A DNA stretch of 64,000 bases, taken from NCBI GenBank assembly GCA_019459455.1, contig JAIBEX010000009.1, forward strand, positions 310,001 through 374,000, read 5' to 3'. Position 1 is the stretch's first letter; every line of letters starts with the position of its first letter. The position numbers and the translations under genes were made by a program. Positions 9,850 to 16,830 of this stretch are shown piece after piece. The notes under the pieces were generated by a model. The model searched no databases and was not told the origin of the DNA. It worked only from the letters and a program-made list of their open reading frames with translations. This stretch comes from Weeksellaceae bacterium (GTDB lineage: Bacteria > Bacteroidota > Bacteroidia > Flavobacteriales > Weeksellaceae).

Positions 9850-11400
9850 ATGAACAATAAATTTATTCCCATCATCTCTGTATTTATGACGATTTCACTC
9901 ATTGTTTTCGTCGCACTGCAGTTTTACTGGCTCAAAAGTTATTACGAGGCGCTGGAACAGGATTTTTCCAATAAAGTGCATGCTGCGCTGGAGTCTTCAT
10001 CCAAAAAGATGACCGATATTGAGGTGGAAAAGTATTACGCGCAATACAAAAACCTGAACAAAGATGTGATTGGTGCCGGGAAACAACCGTCGCTTACTGC
10101 CATACAACAGGTGGAAGATTCGGCGAGTAAGCGAACCATCACCTACTCTAAAAATATTATTGAAAATAAAGATTTTCCGATTTCGTTAAAAGGCGACAGC
10201 CTTAAGGTAACAACAATGTATACCGATGAAGCACTCATCAAAATAAAGCGAGATTCATCATCTCCGGAACTCCTGACGGCAGATTTAAACCGTTCCATAC
10301 AAAGCGGGGAATATACCCTGAAGGAATTTGCGAAACTGAATGCAAACAATTTGCCGATAAACAGACGGGTAGACCCAAAAATTCTGGACTCGGTAGTCTC
10401 AAAGGAACTCAGAATGAAAGGGATCGATACAAAATTCGGATATGGAATACTGGACAGCAAGAACAACCTGACCGGTGTGGCAAACGACATCTTTAAAGAC
10501 GAGAAAAATGCTGACAGCTATACCTACCCCATTTTTTCGGACAACAGGGACCGCACGCTGTACAGTTTGTCGCTTATATTTCCGAGAAAAGGCTATTCAT
10601 TGGCAAAGAACAACCTGCCCATGCTGCTTGGAACGCTTATGTCGCTTCTTACCATTCTGGGAATCTACATCATCTCCATCAACTATATGATGAGGCAAAA
10701 GAAAATTGCGGAGGTAAAGACAGACTTCATCAACAACATGTCGCATGAATTCAAAACACCACTGGCGACAATTTCGGTAGCGACTGACTCGCTGGCGAAT
10801 GACAAGATTGCGACGAATCCGGAAAAAGTAAAATATTACTCCCAGCTTATCAAGCAGGAAAACCTGCGGATGAAAAAGCAGGTGGAAAATGTCCTGAACA
10901 TGAGCAAACTGGAACGCAACGAAGTCCAACTTTTCCTGAAAGAGACGAACTTGAGGAACCTCATTAAGGAAATAACCGAAAGTTTCGGCTTGATCATATC
11001 CCAAAGAAACGGAACGCTGACCCAGGAGTTCACCGCCGACCGTTACATTTTAAGAATTGATGAATTCCATATATCAAATGCACTGATTAACCTATTGGAT
11101 AATGCCAACAAATACTCCCCGGACACACCGGAAATTTTTGTGAAAACCAAGAACGAAGGCAGCTGGTACGTCATTGAGATCTCCGATAAAGGAATTGGAT
11201 TGGATGTAGATAACAACAAGAGGATTTTCGATAAATTCTTTCGCGAAGAAACTGGAAACATCCATAATGTTAAAGGGCAGGGTCTAGGCTTGTCTTATGT
11301 GAAAAAGATCATAGAACTTCACAAAGGGCTGGTCCTGGTGGAATCAGAAAAAGGGAAGGGAAGTACTTTTACAATCAAACTTCCAATGACACAGGCTTAG
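9850..11400 (+). CDS. Membrane sensor histidine kinase (RprX-like)
   Basis: A 516-residue two-component sensor. Helix 1 covers about residues 6-28 and helix 2 about 256-280, bracketing a roughly 225-residue periplasmic sensor region with no recognised domain. The HisKA dimerisation domain carries the phospho-acceptor His299 in NNMSHEFKTP. The ATPase domain shows the N-box (NALINLLDNANKYS), the G1 box DKGIGL and the G2 box GQGLGLSY. The layout resembles the Bacteroides RprX sensor. It is 31 bases upstream of its response regulator. The signal is unknown; the next genes downstream are metal-related, which is suggestive only. Confidence 0.92.
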   Translation: MNNKFIPIISVFMTISLIVFVALQFYWLKSYYEALEQDFSNKVHAALESSSKKMTDIEVEKYYAQYKNLNKDVIGAGKQPSLTAIQQVEDSASKRTITYSKNIIENKDFPISLKGDSLKVTTMYTDEALIKIKRDSSSPELLTADLNRSIQSGEYTLKEFAKLNANNLPINRRVDPKILDSVVSKELRMKGIDTKFGYGILDSKNNLTGVANDIFKDEKNADSYTYPIFSDNRDRTLYSLSLIFPRKGYSLAKNNLPMLLGTLMSLLTILGIYIISINYMMRQKKIAEVKTDFINNMSHEFKTPLATISVATDSLANDKIATNPEKVKYYSQLIKQENLRMKKQVENVLNMSKLERNEVQLFLKETNLRNLIKEITESFGLIISQRNGTLTQEFTADRYILRIDEFHISNALINLLDNANKYSPDTPEIFVKTKNEGSWYVIEISDKGIGLDVDNNKRIFDKFFREETGNIHNVKGQGLGLSYVKKIIELHKGLVLVESEKGKGSTFTIKLPMTQA

Positions 11401-11431
11401 AATTAAAAATAACAATTAATAAATTAATAAA

Positions 11432-12118
11432 ATGAGTAACAGGATCCTATTAGTAGAAGATGACCAAAGTTTTGGTGCAGTTCTGAAGGACTATCTAACC
11501 ATCAATAATTTTGAAGTGACACTTGCCACCGACGGTGAGCAGGGTTTAAAGGAATTTACTGAAAACGAGTTTGACATCTGCATCTTTGATGTGATGATGC
11601 CTAAGAAAGACGGATTCTCACTTGCCGAAGACGTTAAAAAAATAGACAAGAATACCCCAATCATATTTCTGACCGCCAAAAATCTCAGAGAAGATATCCT
11701 GAAAGGCTACCAGTTGGGAGCCGATGATTATATAACGAAACCTTTTGATACCGAACTCCTGCTCTATAAAATTAAGGCCATTCTCCAGCGGAGTGCTACG
11801 ATCGAAAATGATGAGCAGGAACAGTTCAAGATAAGCAATATATTCTTTGATTCCATGCTTCGCCAGCTAAGGGTTGGAGAACATGAATACAAACTCTCTC
11901 CTAAGGAAAATGAGTTGCTGAAGCTGCTTTGCCTCCACCGAAACGATTTCATGCCGCGCGACCTGGCTTTAAGAAAGATCTGGAAAAAGGAGAATTACTT
12001 TACGGCGCGGAGTATGGACGTATATATTGCAAAACTCCGTAAGCTGCTAAAAGACGATGAAGGTTTGGAAATCATCAATGTACATGGCGAAGGTTTCAGA
12101 CTGCTGGTTAAAAACTAA
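11432..12118 (+). CDS. OmpR-family response regulator (RprY-like)
   Basis: A 228-residue regulator with an N-terminal receiver domain and a C-terminal winged-helix DNA-binding domain. The acidic pair Asp10/Asp11, phospho-acceptor Asp53 in IFDVMMPKKDG, Thr81 and Lys103 (YITKPF) are all present, so phosphorylation should be normal. The wHTH part from about residue 130 has the KLSPKENELLKLL entry, the RSMDVYIAKLRKLL recognition helix and the GEGFRL wing. Paired with the kinase just upstream and followed by a terminator. Confidence 0.93.
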   Translation: MSNRILLVEDDQSFGAVLKDYLTINNFEVTLATDGEQGLKEFTENEFDICIFDVMMPKKDGFSLAEDVKKIDKNTPIIFLTAKNLREDILKGYQLGADDYITKPFDTELLLYKIKAILQRSATIENDEQEQFKISNIFFDSMLRQLRVGEHEYKLSPKENELLKLLCLHRNDFMPRDLALRKIWKKENYFTARSMDVYIAKLRKLLKDDEGLEIINVHGEGFRLLVKN

Positions 12119-12131
12119 ATCCACCATATAA

Positions 12132-12171
12132 AAAAATAGCAGATTCATTTCATTTGAATTTGCTATTTTTG
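12132..12171 (+). terminator. Terminator hairpin whose 3' arm contains the next gene's -7 box
   Basis: A 15-base stem, 12132-12146 with 12156-12170 (one mismatch), and a nine-base loop follow the response regulator. The 3' arm ends in TATTTTTG (12164-12171), a full -7 box match placed 21 bases before the lipoprotein ATG. Stop signal and start signal therefore share the same bases. Confidence 0.7.
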
Positions 12172-12192
12172 CTCCTATATATAATTTATCCT

Positions 12193-12873
12193 ATGAAACT
12201 TAGAACACTTTTTATAATCACAGCCGTCTTCGCATTAAGTTCGTGCAAAAAGGAAGAAAAGGCTACTTATCTTAAGGATGCCGATACTGCAACTCCTGCA
12301 ACGGCCAACTCTGTCGAAGCAGCTAAAAACAACGCTGCGGGAATGTTATTGCCTTCACCACAGAATCCAGCAAACCCTGTAATGCCCGGTCAGATGACCC
12401 CAGGACAACCTATGGCAGCCGGTCAGAAGACTGCGCCCGGAATGAACCCAGCTCACGGACAGCCCGGCCACCGGTGTGATATTGCAGTAGGTGCTCCACT
12501 CAATTCACCGGCAAAAGGAGCTTCTTCTGCTCCTCAGCAGATCAAGGTTGACCCTTCATCCGTAAAAAAAGATCCGGCCGCGTATAATGTTCCTGAAAAG
12601 GTAAAAACAGCACCGGGCATGAACCCGCCGCACGGAGAACCCGGTCACCGTTGCGACATCTCAGTTGGTGCGCCGCTCAACAGTCCTGCTAAAAGTACCT
12701 CAAGCGCACCTGCTCCTGTAAAGGCACAAAATGCGTCTATAGTTCCTGATCCTGCCGCATATAACGTGCAAAACAGACCGGCAGTATCCACAGCAAGCAC
12801 CGCAGGACTTAATCCGGCACACGGCCAGCCTGGTCACCGCTGCGATTTAGCAGTTGGCGCCCCTTTAAAATAA
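12193..12873 (+). CDS. Lipoprotein with three His/Cys-containing repeats (putative metal binder)
   Basis: A 226-residue predicted lipoprotein: signal peptide ending in LSSC, with the lipidated Cys at residue 18. The mature protein is a low-complexity Ala/Pro/Lys/Ser chain holding three near-identical 21-residue blocks at residues 83-103, 142-162 and 205-225. Each contains NP-x-HG-x-PGHRCD and ends in VGAPL. Apart from the lipidated residue these blocks hold the only cysteines of the protein, with two histidines and an aspartate each, which looks like repeated metal or heme ligation; this is inference. The start is the ATG at 12193. It opens a rightward cluster with a Cys-rich protein and an HMA-TonB receptor. 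I know no characterised family for it. Confidence 0.85.
   Translation: MKLRTLFIITAVFALSSCKKEEKATYLKDADTATPATANSVEAAKNNAAGMLLPSPQNPANPVMPGQMTPGQPMAAGQKTAPGMNPAHGQPGHRCDIAVGAPLNSPAKGASSAPQQIKVDPSSVKKDPAAYNVPEKVKTAPGMNPPHGEPGHRCDISVGAPLNSPAKSTSSAPAPVKAQNASIVPDPAAYNVQNRPAVSTASTAGLNPAHGQPGHRCDLAVGAPLK
12439..12867 (+). repeat. Three in-frame coding repeats (21-residue NPxHGxPGHRCD blocks)
   Basis: Copies at 12439-12501, 12616-12678 and 12805-12867, spaced 177 and 189 bases start to start. Residues are nearly invariant but synonymous bases differ, which points to selection on the protein rather than a recent duplication. Confidence 0.85.
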
Positions 12874-12880
12874 ATTTTTG

Positions 12881-12888
12881 TATTTTTG
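12881..12888 (+). promoter_or_regulatory. Predicted -7 box (TATTTTTG) before the Cys-rich gene
   Basis: A full TAnnTTTG match only 8 bases before the ATG, leaving almost no leader. It would allow the Cys-rich protein and receptor to be transcribed separately from the lipoprotein. Confidence 0.45.
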
Positions 12889-12896
12889 CACCGTAA

Positions 12897-13262
12897 ATGG
12901 CAAGGAGAATTCAAATATTACTGATTGTCTTTTGTTTGGGAGTCTTCATAATTCCCAAACAGAACTTCTTTGCCCAAACACTTCAGCAATCCTGCTGTGA
13001 TAAAAAAGATACAAAAGACTGCTGCACGCCAGAAAAAGAGGACAAGCAGCCCTGCCACGAAAACGAGAAAAATTCGTGCGGTGACGACTGTAACAGCTGC
13101 GAGTCATGCACGGCATCAACTGTTTTTACAGGCAGCACCGTTGTAGAAAAAATAACTGAAACACCAGATTTCAGGTCTCCTAAAAGTGCAAACTTCAGTT
13201 ATGTAGCTCCGGGTTTCTCAGACCCCAATGCCAGAATCTGGCAACCTCCTAAAATAGGTTAA
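12897..13262 (+). CDS. Small exported Cys-rich protein (putative metal-binding)
   Basis: A 121-residue protein with an N-terminal signal peptide (about residues 1-27, ending FFAQ). The segment from residue 33 to 71 carries nine cysteines, in two CC pairs and several CxxC-type spacings, plus one His and many acidic and lysine residues. The C-terminus ends in ARIWQPPKIG, a tail I have seen on small flavobacterial proteins encoded next to metal-related TonB receptors. It starts 23 bases after the repeat lipoprotein and precedes the receptor by 68 bases. A soft-metal chaperone or scavenger in the periplasm is plausible but not proven. Confidence 0.8.
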   Translation: MARRIQILLIVFCLGVFIIPKQNFFAQTLQQSCCDKKDTKDCCTPEKEDKQPCHENEKNSCGDDCNSCESCTASTVFTGSTVVEKITETPDFRSPKSANFSYVAPGFSDPNARIWQPPKIG

Positions 13263-13330
13263 TTTATTATTTGCAGCCACAGGTCCGTTCCTTTGGCTCT
13301 CATTTTAATCAAATTAATTTATTTTATACA

Positions 13331-16003
13331 ATGAAAACTTTATTAAAAAGTATTCTGATTTTCACCCTTATCTTTTCTCAAAGTTTATTTGCACAAACAA
13401 TTACGAAATCCACTTTCAATGTGAAAGGGGAATGTGGGATGTGTAAAGAAAGGATTGAAACAACCGCAAAAAAATCCGGTGCAGTTTCTGCCAACTGGAA
13501 TGCCGAAACCCAACAGCTGGAAGTCCAGTATGATGAATCTAAAGTATCGGCGGATGCCCTGCTGAAGAAAATAGCAGAGGTAGGTCATGACAATGAAAAA
13601 TATGCCGCACCAAACGAGGTGTATGAAAATCTGCCGGGCTGTTGTCTGTACGAGAGAACACCCTCTTTTCTAAAAACTACTGAAAATACCGTAAAACCGA
13701 ACCCCACTGCCGCAGGCAACCAGTTTTTTGTAAAGGGGAACTGTGGTTCGTGCAAGGCAAGGATTGAAAAAGCAGCAACAGACGCCGGTGCCGATACTGC
13801 AGTCTGGGATTCGGAAACGCAGACCGTAGTACTTAATTTTGATCCCGGGAAAACTTCAGCAGCCAAGATTTTAGAGAAAATTGCAGAGGTGGGTCATGAC
13901 AATGAAAAGTTCCTGACCAAAGATGAAGTCTATAAAAGTCTGCCAGACTGCTGTCTTTATGACCGTGAATTACCTTTCGGGGTGAAAAGCAGTTTGGTAC
14001 ACAGCGATGAAGTCGCACCAAAAAAGGATTATACACAGCACGCGGATCATTATGACAAATCTATTGAAGAGGTACAGCTGGTCAAACGTGAAGAAGCAAC
14101 CGCTTTAAGTAAAAAAAGCGCAGGCCTTACCTTTAACATTGGCCAGAAAGAACTGCTGAAAGCAGCTTGCTGTAACCTCTCCGAGAGTTTTGAAACCAAT
14201 GCGACGGTCGATGTTTCCTTCAGTAATGCGGTTACGGGGACCAAACAGCTTAAAATGCTGGGTCTGGACCAAAAATATACGAGTCTAACAAAGGAACTGC
14301 TGCCGGAAATCCGCGGACTTGCTTCTGCTTATGGCCTTAATTTCATACCGGGACGCTGGATTGGCGGAATCCAGCTTACAAAAGGGGGAAGCACGGTTAC
14401 CAACGGTTACGAAAGTATTACGGGACAGATCAACACCGAACTTCTGAAATTCGGCAAAACCCCGGAAACCTCGCTTAATGTCTTTGCCGATGTCAATTCA
14501 AGGACTGAAATGAATGTGACCCATACCTCGGCTCTGAACGACAAATGGAACCAGAGCATTTTGCTGCACGGCAACGGCACACTGGCAAAAATGGACTATA
14601 ATGAGGATGGCTTTCTTGACCAACCTACCGGTACTCAGTTGAATGCCGCCTACCTCATCAATTATAATGACCTGGATAAATCCGGCTGGGCCACCCATTT
14701 TGGAATCAATTTCCTTCAGGATAAAAGAACTGCAGGCCAGGTGGAATTCAAAAAGACGCTGGACCAGAGTGAGCAGAATGCTTATGGAGTTGGAATCGAC
14801 ATCTCCCGTTTTCAGGTTTGGAATAAAACAGGTCACATCTTCAAAGGAAAACCGTATCAGAGTTTGGGCTGGATGAACCAGTTTACCTATCACCAGCAGG
14901 ACAGTTTCTTTGGCTTCAGAGATTATTTCGGGAAGCAAAACACCTTTTATTCAAATCTGATTTTTGAAAGCATACTCGGAAATACCAATCACAAATATAA
15001 AACCGGTGCAAGTTTCCTGTATGATCAGTATAATGAGGATTACCTGACCCAAAACCACAACAGGACCGAAACCGTTCCGGGTTTGTTCTTTGAATATACC
15101 CATACTGGGACAAAATACACCCTTGTAGCAGGGGCAAGAGCTGATTTTCACAACCTGGCGGGCACCCAGTTTACTCCAAGACTGAACTTCAAGTATGATT
15201 TTACGCCCAAAACCATCTTGCGTCTATCTGCAGGAAAAGGGTTCAGAACCGCTAATATCTTTGCAGAAAACCAGCAATATTTTGCCTCCAACAGGCAGGT
15301 GGAAATTTTAGGAAATGGGGGCAATATCTACAACCTGAAGCCTGAGATCGCATGGAATTACGGTGCAAGTCTACAGCAGGAATTTCAGTTATTCAATAAG
15401 AAGGCCACATTAGTAGCCGATTTCTTCAGGACCGACTTCCAAGACCAAGTTCTGGCAGACCTTGATGTTTCGCCACAAAAAATTGTTTTCTACAACCTTG
15501 ATGGTAAATCCTTCGCGAACAGTTTTCAGACGCAGTTGGATTTTTCTCCTCTAAAAAATCTTGACCTGAGGCTTGCCTACAAATATTATGATGTACAGGC
15601 CGAATATTTGGGAGGCACCAGGGCGGTTCCTTTTATGGCTAAAAACAGGGGGTTCTTTAACGCATCTTATGCGACAGAAAAGAATGCGAAAGAAGGCTTT
15701 TGGTCTTTCGACACTACTTTACAGTATGTAGGAAAGCAGAGACTGCCGGACATGTCTACCAATCCGGTTGAATTCCAGCTTCCCGCTTCTTCAGATCCCT
15801 ATGTAACACTGAATGCTCAGATTGCAAGAGACTTTTCCAAAAATGTGAGGCTTTACGCGGGTGGTGAGAATCTGACAAGTTTCACCCAGGATAACCCCAT
15901 CATTGATGCGGCAAATCCGCTCGGAAATTATTTTGACGGCGGAATGGTTTATGCGCCTATTATGCCAGCCAACTTTTATGTTGGTGTAGATTTGAAGTTC
16001 TAA
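13331..16003 (+). CDS. TonB-dependent outer membrane receptor with two N-terminal HMA domains
   Basis: An 890-residue protein with a signal peptide (about 1-21). Two heavy-metal-associated domains follow: the first at about residues 26-95 with Cys35-Gly-Met-Cys38, the second at about 131-200 with Cys138-Gly-Ser-Cys141. Each is followed by a GHDNEK segment and an LPxCCLYxR motif (CC at 104-105 and 207-208). A further CC at 280-281 opens the plug, which runs to about residue 370 and carries VTGTKQLKMLGL. A 22-strand-type barrel ends in the aromatic NFYVGVDLKF. HMA domains bind Cu(I) and similar soft metals, so import or capture of copper or a copper complex is likely; this is inference. The ATG at 13331 gives the signal peptide. 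A bidirectional terminator follows. Confidence 0.9.
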   Translation: MKTLLKSILIFTLIFSQSLFAQTITKSTFNVKGECGMCKERIETTAKKSGAVSANWNAETQQLEVQYDESKVSADALLKKIAEVGHDNEKYAAPNEVYENLPGCCLYERTPSFLKTTENTVKPNPTAAGNQFFVKGNCGSCKARIEKAATDAGADTAVWDSETQTVVLNFDPGKTSAAKILEKIAEVGHDNEKFLTKDEVYKSLPDCCLYDRELPFGVKSSLVHSDEVAPKKDYTQHADHYDKSIEEVQLVKREEATALSKKSAGLTFNIGQKELLKAACCNLSESFETNATVDVSFSNAVTGTKQLKMLGLDQKYTSLTKELLPEIRGLASAYGLNFIPGRWIGGIQLTKGGSTVTNGYESITGQINTELLKFGKTPETSLNVFADVNSRTEMNVTHTSALNDKWNQSILLHGNGTLAKMDYNEDGFLDQPTGTQLNAAYLINYNDLDKSGWATHFGINFLQDKRTAGQVEFKKTLDQSEQNAYGVGIDISRFQVWNKTGHIFKGKPYQSLGWMNQFTYHQQDSFFGFRDYFGKQNTFYSNLIFESILGNTNHKYKTGASFLYDQYNEDYLTQNHNRTETVPGLFFEYTHTGTKYTLVAGARADFHNLAGTQFTPRLNFKYDFTPKTILRLSAGKGFRTANIFAENQQYFASNRQVEILGNGGNIYNLKPEIAWNYGASLQQEFQLFNKKATLVADFFRTDFQDQVLADLDVSPQKIVFYNLDGKSFANSFQTQLDFSPLKNLDLRLAYKYYDVQAEYLGGTRAVPFMAKNRGFFNASYATEKNAKEGFWSFDTTLQYVGKQRLPDMSTNPVEFQLPASSDPYVTLNAQIARDFSKNVRLYAGGENLTSFTQDNPIIDAANPLGNYFDGGMVYAPIMPANFYVGVDLKF

Positions 16004-16022
16004 TCTATCGGGAGCATAAAAC

Positions 16023-16056
16023 AAAAGGGAGGTCAAAAATTTGACCTCCCTTTTTT
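16023..16056. terminator. Bidirectional intrinsic terminator
   Basis: Perfect 14-base stem 16023-16036 with 16041-16054 and a four-base loop. Runs of T follow on both strands, serving the receptor gene and the convergent L,D-transpeptidase gene. Confidence 0.9.
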
Positions 16057-16077
16057 ATCAATTATCTATATACTAAT

Positions 16078-16830
16078 TTATGAATTTAGCCACTCTGATG
16101 ATCCCAGATAGTTTTTGTCCGGGTAATAAACGAATAGAACATTCTGGCCCTTTATCGTATTGATGATCGGCTCTGCCAGTTCTCTTGAGACCGCGGGGCA
16201 TCCCCAGCTCCGGCCAATCCTCTGATGTGACTTGCTAAAGTCTTCGCTCACATAATCTGCGCCGTGCATGACGATAGCTCTTTTCAGTGCATTATCATTG
16301 AATCCTCTGTCCATTCCCAAAAGTTTCAGGGAGTACCCGTTTTCCCCGTTGTACGTGGATTCGGTTATGTAAAAACCCATACTGCTCTGCAGTGAACTTT
16401 CCGTGTTCGAAAAATCAGTCGCAAATTCTTCACCGGTGTTCTTTCCATGCGCCACCAGCGCGTTGAAAAGGACTTTTTTACTGTTCAAATCAATTACCCA
16501 CAGTCTCTTTTTTGTTGATGAAAGCGAAAAATCGCAGACGGTCAAAAGATTTGCTGTTTCAGCTACTTTCCCTGCTTTTTTCAAATTTGTAAAACCCATA
16601 AAGGCTTTTTCAAAGACGTCAGAATCAAGCTTGTTCACGGTAGTAAAGTCGATGGAATTATAAAGCTCCAGGGTCGTGCTTCCTTCGTTTATTAAAGCTG
16701 AAGTTGGATTAACGGGATTGTTTAAGTTATTTAATAATGGGGTAGTATTGATTGTTTCGGTATCGGTATCGCGGTAAAATGAGGTCGTCAGTACAAAAGT
16801 AGCTGACAGTGCTAAAAAAAGTTTCTTCAT
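16078..16830 (-). CDS. L,D-transpeptidase catalytic-domain protein (YkuD_2 type)
   Basis: A 250-residue exported protein whose catalytic segment has His189 in VMHGADYVS and the pair Ser208/Cys211 in GRSWGCPAVS, the active-site signature of the YkuD_2 branch. Such enzymes make 3-3 crosslinks in peptidoglycan or attach proteins to it. The N-terminus has a hydrophobic leader of about 17 residues. A long linker follows before the catalytic region at about residues 95-240. Lone gene between two terminated or divergent units; the start ATG is unambiguous. Confidence 0.85.
   Translation of the reverse strand: MKKLFLALSATFVLTTSFYRDTDTETINTTPLLNNLNNPVNPTSALINEGSTTLELYNSIDFTTVNKLDSDVFEKAFMGFTNLKKAGKVAETANLLTVCDFSLSSTKKRLWVIDLNSKKVLFNALVAHGKNTGEEFATDFSNTESSLQSSMGFYITESTYNGENGYSLKLLGMDRGFNDNALKRAIVMHGADYVSEDFSKSHQRIGRSWGCPAVSRELAEPIINTIKGQNVLFVYYPDKNYLGSSEWLNS

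Follow-up and report, generated by a model that had tools for sequence, protein, structure and literature searches.

A candidate copper-uptake operon of Bacteroidota with chaperone-like HMA domains carried by its TonB-dependent receptor

How copper crosses the outer membrane of Gram-negative bacteria, and how it is contained in the periplasm, is poorly known. Here we report an analysis of a three-gene unit within a 64,000-nucleotide (nt) stretch of a Weeksellaceae genome (GenBank assembly GCA_019459455.1, contig JAIBEX010000009.1, positions 310,001 to 374,000; the whole stretch is hereafter referred to as the window). The unit encodes a lipoprotein (LIP), a small Cys-rich protein (CYS) and a TonB-dependent receptor (TBDT) with two HMA domains at its N terminus. 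We favour, with somewhat better than even confidence, the reading that it is a copper-uptake operon, in which the HMA domains would take over the metal at the receptor and CYS would serve as a nascent-chain sensor. Many other Bacteroidota have parts of the unit, with the HMA protein either fused to the receptor or encoded beside it.

LIP (12193–12873), CYS (12897–13262) and TBDT (13331–16003) lie in tandem on the plus strand, separated by gaps of 23 and 68 nt and flanked by two hairpin terminators. A sequence-only reading had described just such a tandem between terminators, made up of a repeat lipoprotein, a Cys-rich exported protein and a receptor with two HMA-plus-LPxCCLYxR units, and had proposed that the three proteins relay a soft metal as one system; the open reading frames, the gaps and both hairpins agree with its layout. 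We compared the unit with a family sample of 148 genomes and a phylum sample of 247 Bacteroidota genomes, from which 40 family loci, spread across genera, and 40 phylum loci were picked by hand from the search results.

TBDT consists of 890 residues and contains a TonB barrel domain (PF00593, 98.8 bits against a cut-off of 27). Its predicted model adopts a plug and barrel fold over residues 252 to 890, with Z scores of 28–34 to solved receptors and with low model confidence in the plug part. The nearest solved folds, those of siderophore, B12 and other receptors, share 10–16% identity with it and are uninformative on the substrate. The two HMA units (13400–13660 and 13721–13960, plus strand) score 48.2 bits together (PF00403, cut-off 24.8) and 31.5 and 28.4 bits singly, and are the only PF00403 matches at E ≤ 0.001 in the whole window genome. 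Unit 1 has C35xxC38, the loop residue His86 and LPxC104C105LY, and unit 2 has C138xxC141, His189 and LPxC207C208LY; the tails read LPGCCLYER from residue 101 and LPDCCLYDR from residue 204, one after each HMA domain, so that the domain matches and both tails bear out the receptor architecture described earlier. The CxxC motif, the GHD loop with its His and the LPxCC tail are invariant in both units among 19 aligned two-HMA receptors. The loop His occupies the position of a Tyr in CopA, and we take this position to be that of His61 in cyanobacterial Atx1, for which a PDB title lists a His61Tyr mutant.

In the full TBDT model, two HMA-like strand–helix orders precede residue 210 with high confidence. 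The model of unit 1 best matches a Cu(I) metallochaperone (2qif; Z 11.2, root-mean-square deviation 0.9, 67 aligned), and the tied matches are mostly copper proteins but include MerP (1osd, Z 10.6); ZntA (1mwy) matches with a Z of 8.6. The predicted strand and helix order of unit 2 fits β-α-β-β-α, and the fold comparison barely covered this unit. In an alignment with BtuB:TonB (2gsk), the first aligned residues are model residue 244 and chain residue 5. Because this alignment puts the HMA units ahead of the TonB box, they probably reside in the periplasm; the segment EEVQLVKRE (residues 246 to 254; 14066–14092, plus strand) is the probable TonB box region, assigned by position only. The plug bears the signature LLKAAC280C281NLSESFET (14153–14200, plus strand), in which the C280–C281 pair is conserved as CC in 41/41 family receptors.

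Of 41 family loci, 36 encode a receptor whose N terminus consists of one to three HMA domains. Elsewhere the HMA is a protein of its own: in L165 (Flavobacterium hydatis) and in the Empedobacter-type loci L087 and L190 a Cys-rich gene, the receptor and a free HMA gene follow one another, and a free HMA gene adjoins the receptor in 76 of the 91 loci without a fused HMA. The receptor of L165 has no extra N-terminal Pfam domain and that of L087 has CarbopepD_reg_2 at residues 22 to 105, in line with the earlier suggestion that the HMA domains occupy the usual place of a carboxypeptidase-like domain. A single HMA precedes a carboxypeptidase-like domain in L200 (Chitinophagaceae), as detected with Pfam, and by eye also in L114, L207, L213 and L214; L067, L070, L077, L156 and L157 have both free and fused HMA. 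The CC tail is present in 104/104 fused HMA units and 77/78 free partner HMAs, and in 0/8 control HMA units, drawn from ATPases or MauE-type proteins of these loci; the window HMAs have a median identity of 38–41% to the free partners versus 16–19% to these controls. Fused in some relatives and a free neighbour with the same CC tail in others, the HMA protein is therefore linked to the receptor by gene fusion.

A receptor-core tree built without the HMA and carboxypeptidase-like domains has three changes of the fused state, two of them forced by supported branches, and 13 changes of HMA number. Because the domain order differs between the two lineages concerned, the HMA was probably fused to the receptor independently in each. 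Near-identical receptors (L065 and L072, end branches 0.002 and 0.009) have two and one HMA, respectively, and the third HMA unit of L064 is 98% identical to the second; HMA copies thus appear to be gained and lost fast. In L195 (5851–8334), the receptor reading frame extends into the HMA behind it and includes an internal signal-like stretch; as the assembly is a metagenomic one, a lost stop or an error may be the cause. In L201, L209 and L217, a protein of about 230–245 residues with an N-terminal HMA-like CxxC lies between the Cys-rich gene and the receptor, the slot of CopA in other loci; that of L209 contains HMA and MauE domains by scan, and L108 and L109 have similar proteins as judged by their starts.

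CYS (121 residues, plus strand) has a hydrophobic N terminus, as read in the sequence, and the C-terminal end IWQPPKIG. Among 41 CYS proteins with a mean column identity of 32%, PPK is invariant and the preceding I, W and Q are each conserved in at least 90%. In a set of 139 proteins, 4 lack PP, 62 have it at most 6 residues from the end and 73 have it further in; in 53/62 PP lies three residues before the end, and in 56/62 the last Cys is 42–49 residues from PP. The Cys region of CYS proteins varies widely in length, and the spacing from the last Cys to PP stays near 45. According to excerpts of a study of CutF-like proteins, its filters included a length below 150 residues, PP within the last 15 residues, an N-terminal signal peptide, a same-strand downstream gene within 1 kb and iterative sequence similarity within clusters (PMC9973294). 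In the window, P117–P118 fall within the last 15 of the 121 residues, and TBDT follows on the same strand after 68 nt.

In 22 further loci, a CYS paralog precedes genes of metal type; for six of them this assignment comes from a CxxC/DUF3347 gene only. Twenty of these loci (L250–L269) were picked from among the lower-ranking CYS matches, not at random: 14 have an RND pump, an oxidase or a P1B ATPase among the next four genes, and six (L255–L259 and L265) only a CxxC gene, DUF3347 where scanned. The other two are L243 and L244; L245 was excluded, as its paralog follows an ATPase and the contig ends. Neighbours were checked with Pfam in L250, L255, L261, L262, L264, L267, L268 and the window genome, and the remainder assigned by the same N-terminal letters or by CPMHP or DKTG strings. 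We did not adopt a plain metal carrier as the preferred reading of CYS, because the C-terminal geometry and the paralog positions fit a leader better. CYS thus probably resembles a copper-sensing leader polypeptide of the CutF/CruR type more than a metal carrier, and may sense copper through ribosome arrest. The three-protein metal relay of the sequence-only reading accordingly lacks support in its original form, since CYS has the anatomy of such a leader and not that of a carrier.

The gap between CYS and TBDT contains an RNA hairpin (13275–13298, plus strand), which begins 12 nt 3′ of the CYS stop (gap z −3.09). Fold z scores below −1.5 occur in 32/41 CYS–receptor gaps and in 50/59 corresponding gaps of other lineages; in the controls, they occur in 7/41 gaps before CYS, 7/37 gaps from the receptor to the next gene and 62/150 other same-strand gaps. 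The hairpin start lies 11–16 nt beyond the stop codon for 51% of the 41 gaps and for 13% of shuffles; the remaining starts are scattered. The matching hairpin in 13 Chryseobacterium-type relatives carries compensatory changes: 97.8% of cells are paired, the covariation score was reached by 0/500 shuffles, and changes on both sides in 4/7 pairs were reached by 6/500 shuffles, by statistics that ignore the kinship of the 13 sequences. Past their stop codons, the paralog leaders of L250–L269 are followed by a recurring ACAGCC...TGTGTCTTGTC-like stretch and, in most, by a hairpin some 32 nt downstream of the stop; the gaps after paralog leaders have z < −1.5 in 17/21.

The receptor occurs in 137 of the 148 family genomes (E ≤ 1e-60), CYS in 108 and LIP in 64 (E ≤ 0.001). 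In 99 of the 105 genomes (of 108) with a best match listed, CYS is encoded on the same strand as the receptor and at most 1 kb upstream of it. LIP lies within 3 kb of the receptor in 55/64 genomes, upstream in 31 and after the receptor in 24, with 54 of these genes within 1 kb and one at 2.8 kb. At the phylum level, 65/247 genomes contain the receptor core (E ≤ 1e-80). Among 157 receptor loci, drawn from three overlapping sets in which L153/L074, L159/L080 and L160/L084 appear to be shared, an HMA is fused to the receptor or adjacent to it in 142, and a small Cys-rich gene lies upstream in 149; applied to the genes at +3 to +5 downstream, these loose tests detected an HMA in 0/133 loci and a small Cys-rich gene in 7/133. 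The recurrence that the sequence-only reading expected was thus found, and its single system stands for CYS, TBDT and HMA, and for LIP within the family only. Records L168 and L177, titled Bifidobacterium breve and Sphingobacterium thalpophilum, have Flavobacterium-like versions of the locus and are probably mislabelled metagenome bins.

LIP consists of 226 residues, with a lipobox-like LSSC and three NPxHGxPGHRCD[IL]xVGAPL repeats (HGxPGHRCD at 12454–12480, 12631–12657 and 12820–12846, plus strand), as the description of a repeat lipoprotein had it, and has family matches. The repeat is one at the protein level, because no direct repeats of 30 bases were found in the gene. An exact DNA pattern for HGxPGHRCD occurs in 15/247 Bacteroidota genomes, each with one to three copies at a single place; the reversed pattern, used as a control, occurs in 0/247. 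Fourteen of the 15 genomes also hold the receptor; in ten genomes (g34, Flavobacterium-type by receptor likeness), the motif and the receptor are separated by more than 100 kb or sit on different contigs. Inspection by eye, aided by a single Pfam scan, showed no copper genes beside LIP in the loci fetched, and LIP can be tied to copper only weakly. L236 (G267) encodes a 107-residue protein with two HGxPGHRCD motifs, and the receptor core was not found there at E ≤ 1e-80.

Copper is our best guess for the metal, by association. The best PDB sequence matches of the HMA units are copper chaperones and CopA domains. ATPases of the CopA type (CPC, YN and M[SA]FSS) follow the Cys-rich gene and precede the receptor in L111, L208 and L219, and come after the HMA gene in L134; a 1174-residue gene in L114, flagged as P-type by a DKTG string, was left uncounted, as its start reads sensor-like. 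CYS paralogs lie ahead of multicopper oxidases, CopB-type ATPases and RND pumps. To this extent, the four CopA-type loci and the paralogs before metal-type genes lend the earlier proposal of Cu(I) support by association. The window genome (2.59 Mb, 99.8% complete) encodes seven P-type ATPases, of which five contain CPC or CPH. It also contains a metal-resistance island (G000:C13:285420–308625; L248 and L249) with RND pumps, a multicopper oxidase with HMBD repeats, CopB-type (CPH) and Zn/Cd-like ATPases, and two more small Cys-rich genes, ending in IWQPPKI(S/G), ahead of its operons.

In the copper-uptake mechanism that we propose, the outer-membrane receptor would import copper, free or chelated, by TonB energy. 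The metal would leave the plug on the periplasmic side near the invariant C280–C281 pair and be caught as Cu(I) by the tethered N-terminal HMA domains. Both HMA units combine a CxxC with an invariant loop His and a CC tail, so that the metal would not have to pass through a free state on leaving the receptor. The HMA protein, a separate neighbour gene in many relatives, would here have been fused and doubled. The Cys cluster of CYS would bind copper during export, and its C-terminal IWQPPK segment, together with the following hairpin, would set receptor expression. LIP may be an accessory lipoprotein.

Four other explanations compete with copper uptake. The relay proposed from the sequence, in which copper would be carried from the surface to the periplasm by LIP, CYS and the receptor HMAs alike, draws on the Cys/His motifs of all three neighbours. 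We consider it unlikely: the cluster-to-end stretch of CYS varies in its letters, yet keeps its length and PPK; CYS paralogs are small genes ahead of metal-type genes; and LIP is distant from the receptor or on another contig in 9/64 family genomes, as in the ten genomes with the distant motif. Alternatively, the receptor and its HMAs may serve copper defence and bind excess copper in the periplasm, either to sequester it like a sponge or to have it removed. Such a role fits the CYS paralogs that precede efflux and oxidase genes and the CopA exporters encoded within or behind the operon in some relatives, but not the near universality of the receptor in the family sample (137/148); TonB receptors, moreover, are to our knowledge importers. 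We regard defence as rather improbable.

The substrate may also be another soft metal or metal complex (Zn, Cd/Hg or a thiol-bound chelate), given that the HMA folds of MerP, tied with the best match, and ZntA match as well, and that the L208 ATPase passes the Cd model TIGR01512 besides the Cu model TIGR01511. This, too, seems rather improbable in view of the copper chaperones and CopA domains among the best sequence matches, the CopA signature of the neighbouring ATPases and the invariant His at the Tyr position of CopA. Finally, the fused HMA could serve structure or signalling at the N terminus and take no part in metal traffic, as other receptors have N-terminal extensions of unknown or signalling role. 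The invariance of CxxC, loop His and CC in both units of the 19 aligned receptors, and the occurrence of the same domain as a free neighbour protein, make this highly improbable.

Several observations weigh against copper uptake with a leader and a fused chaperone. As to the metal, HMA domains and Cys clusters bind Zn, Cd, Hg and Ag too; the L208 ATPase satisfies both metal models; and a CYS paralog in the window genome heads an operon with RND and P1B-ATPase genes, in which the ATPase tail FADVGVALL was judged Zn/Cd-like, so the CYS family is not copper-only. The occurrence of cytochrome oxidase gave no discrimination, being recorded in 235/247 genomes, and no CxxxM–HxM spacing was found by eye among the C, H and M positions of TBDT after residue 241. 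As to the leader, DUF2946 (PF11162) was found in 0/41 CYS proteins at E ≤ 0.1, and the motif is WQPP, not RAPP. The hairpin evidence loses weight, besides the neglected kinship, in that hairpins are common in the same-strand control gaps and that the CYS hairpin is unremarkable in its diversity of pair types (64/500 shuffles). As to the fusion, the two forced tree changes could equal one gain and one loss, and 15 of the 157 receptor loci have no fused or adjacent HMA by the motif test; a few of the 15 are at contig ends, but L086 and L090 are not, yet their genomes (G070 and G041) contain other HMA genes.

Beyond the window, we tentatively propose, with rather less than even confidence, that copper acquisition of a design of their own is widespread in the Bacteroidota. 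It would comprise a receptor with a Cys-pair plug, a dedicated periplasmic HMA chaperone with a CC tail that serves the plug exit, and that in two lineages has become part of the receptor by separate fusions, letting copper move inside a single molecule, and copper-sensing ribosome-arrest leaders of the IWQPPK and HYC_CC_PP types, which with a hairpin would control receptor and metal efflux operons. With the probable chaperone covalently joined to the receptor, and 0 to 3 copies of it in the relatives, removal or mutation of a single domain would put the hand-off directly to the test. If true, the leader interpretation would account for many unnamed small Cys-rich genes before Bacteroidota metal operons.

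The unit is bounded upstream by an AT-rich, terminator-like hairpin of 16 bp (12132–12170, plus strand; fold z −5.95), located 3′ of a response-regulator gene and not picked up by a consensus terminator scan, and downstream by a 14-bp terminator hairpin (16023–16054, no strand assigned; z −5.33) shared with a convergent YkuD-type gene. A histidine kinase and an RprY-like regulator (297.9 bits, below the model cut-off of 370) are encoded directly upstream (9850–12118), as in several relatives; we left them out of the unit because they are absent from the gene maps of L057, L059 and L063. An Rfam scan of 11900–16300 returned one match only, below threshold.

Among known systems, the OprC/NosA copper receptors share with TBDT the TonB receptor fold, OprC being among its Foldseek matches, and a proposed role in copper uptake; their site as given in excerpts of PMC8610252, CxxxM in the plug and HxM in the barrel, is absent from TBDT, which has a plug CC and an N-terminal HMA instead, and on this ground TBDT was ruled out as an OprC member. 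CarboxypepD_reg-type TonB receptors carry their domain within the same plug family (L087 and L200), where TBDT has HMA in its place and L200 has HMA in front of it. CopZ, Atx1 and MerP metallochaperones have the fold and the CxxC in common with the HMA units, which differ in their LPxCC tail, loop His and covalent attachment to the receptor; periplasmic CopZ-like proteins with signal peptides are named for Bizionia in excerpts of PMC11213822. Our searches of the open-licence literature brought up no description of an HMA-bearing TonB receptor, including in the available parts of PMC6769254, PMC11960050 and PMC7221216.

A close counterpart of CYS–TBDT is Bordetella CruR–CrtA(BfrG), in which, as far as excerpts of PMC9426467 and PMC12914433 describe it, a small protein with a Cys motif and PP three residues from the end likewise precedes a copper TonB receptor. 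CruR, which heads the operon of that receptor, has RAPP three residues from its end and 45 residues from CXXC to RAPP (PMC9426467). It differs in having DUF2946 and RAPP, whereas CYS has WQPP and no DUF2946 match; the leader–receptor gap is 162 nt for CruR–CrtA versus 68 nt for CYS–TBDT; and HMA and CopZ are unmentioned in the CrtA paper, whereas TBDT carries HMA. With CutF-like leaders, CYS shares its size, PP position, near same-strand gene and gap hairpin, and excerpts of PMC9973294 place 40% (normalised) of the CutF-like list in the Bacteroidota, with TonB-like genes among the frequent neighbours. According to excerpts of a later paper, arrest by CruR and CutF had not been demonstrated experimentally (PMC10987492). 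HYC_CC_PP proteins (NF047658), for which we found no open-licence literature, occupy the same slot before the receptor in L165, L190, L200 and L212 and precede the CopA gene in L208; unlike in CYS, with PP three residues from the end, their PP is mostly 12–17 residues from it. These five loci account for the matches among seven small Cys-rich relatives scanned, those of L059 and L134 being the other two; NF047658 gave no match to the window CYS at E ≤ 1 or to its relative in L059 at E ≤ 0.1. Because copper TonB receptors (OprC and CrtA) and leaders (CruR and CutF) were already known, we regard the HMA-bearing receptor as a variant and not as a wholly new kind.

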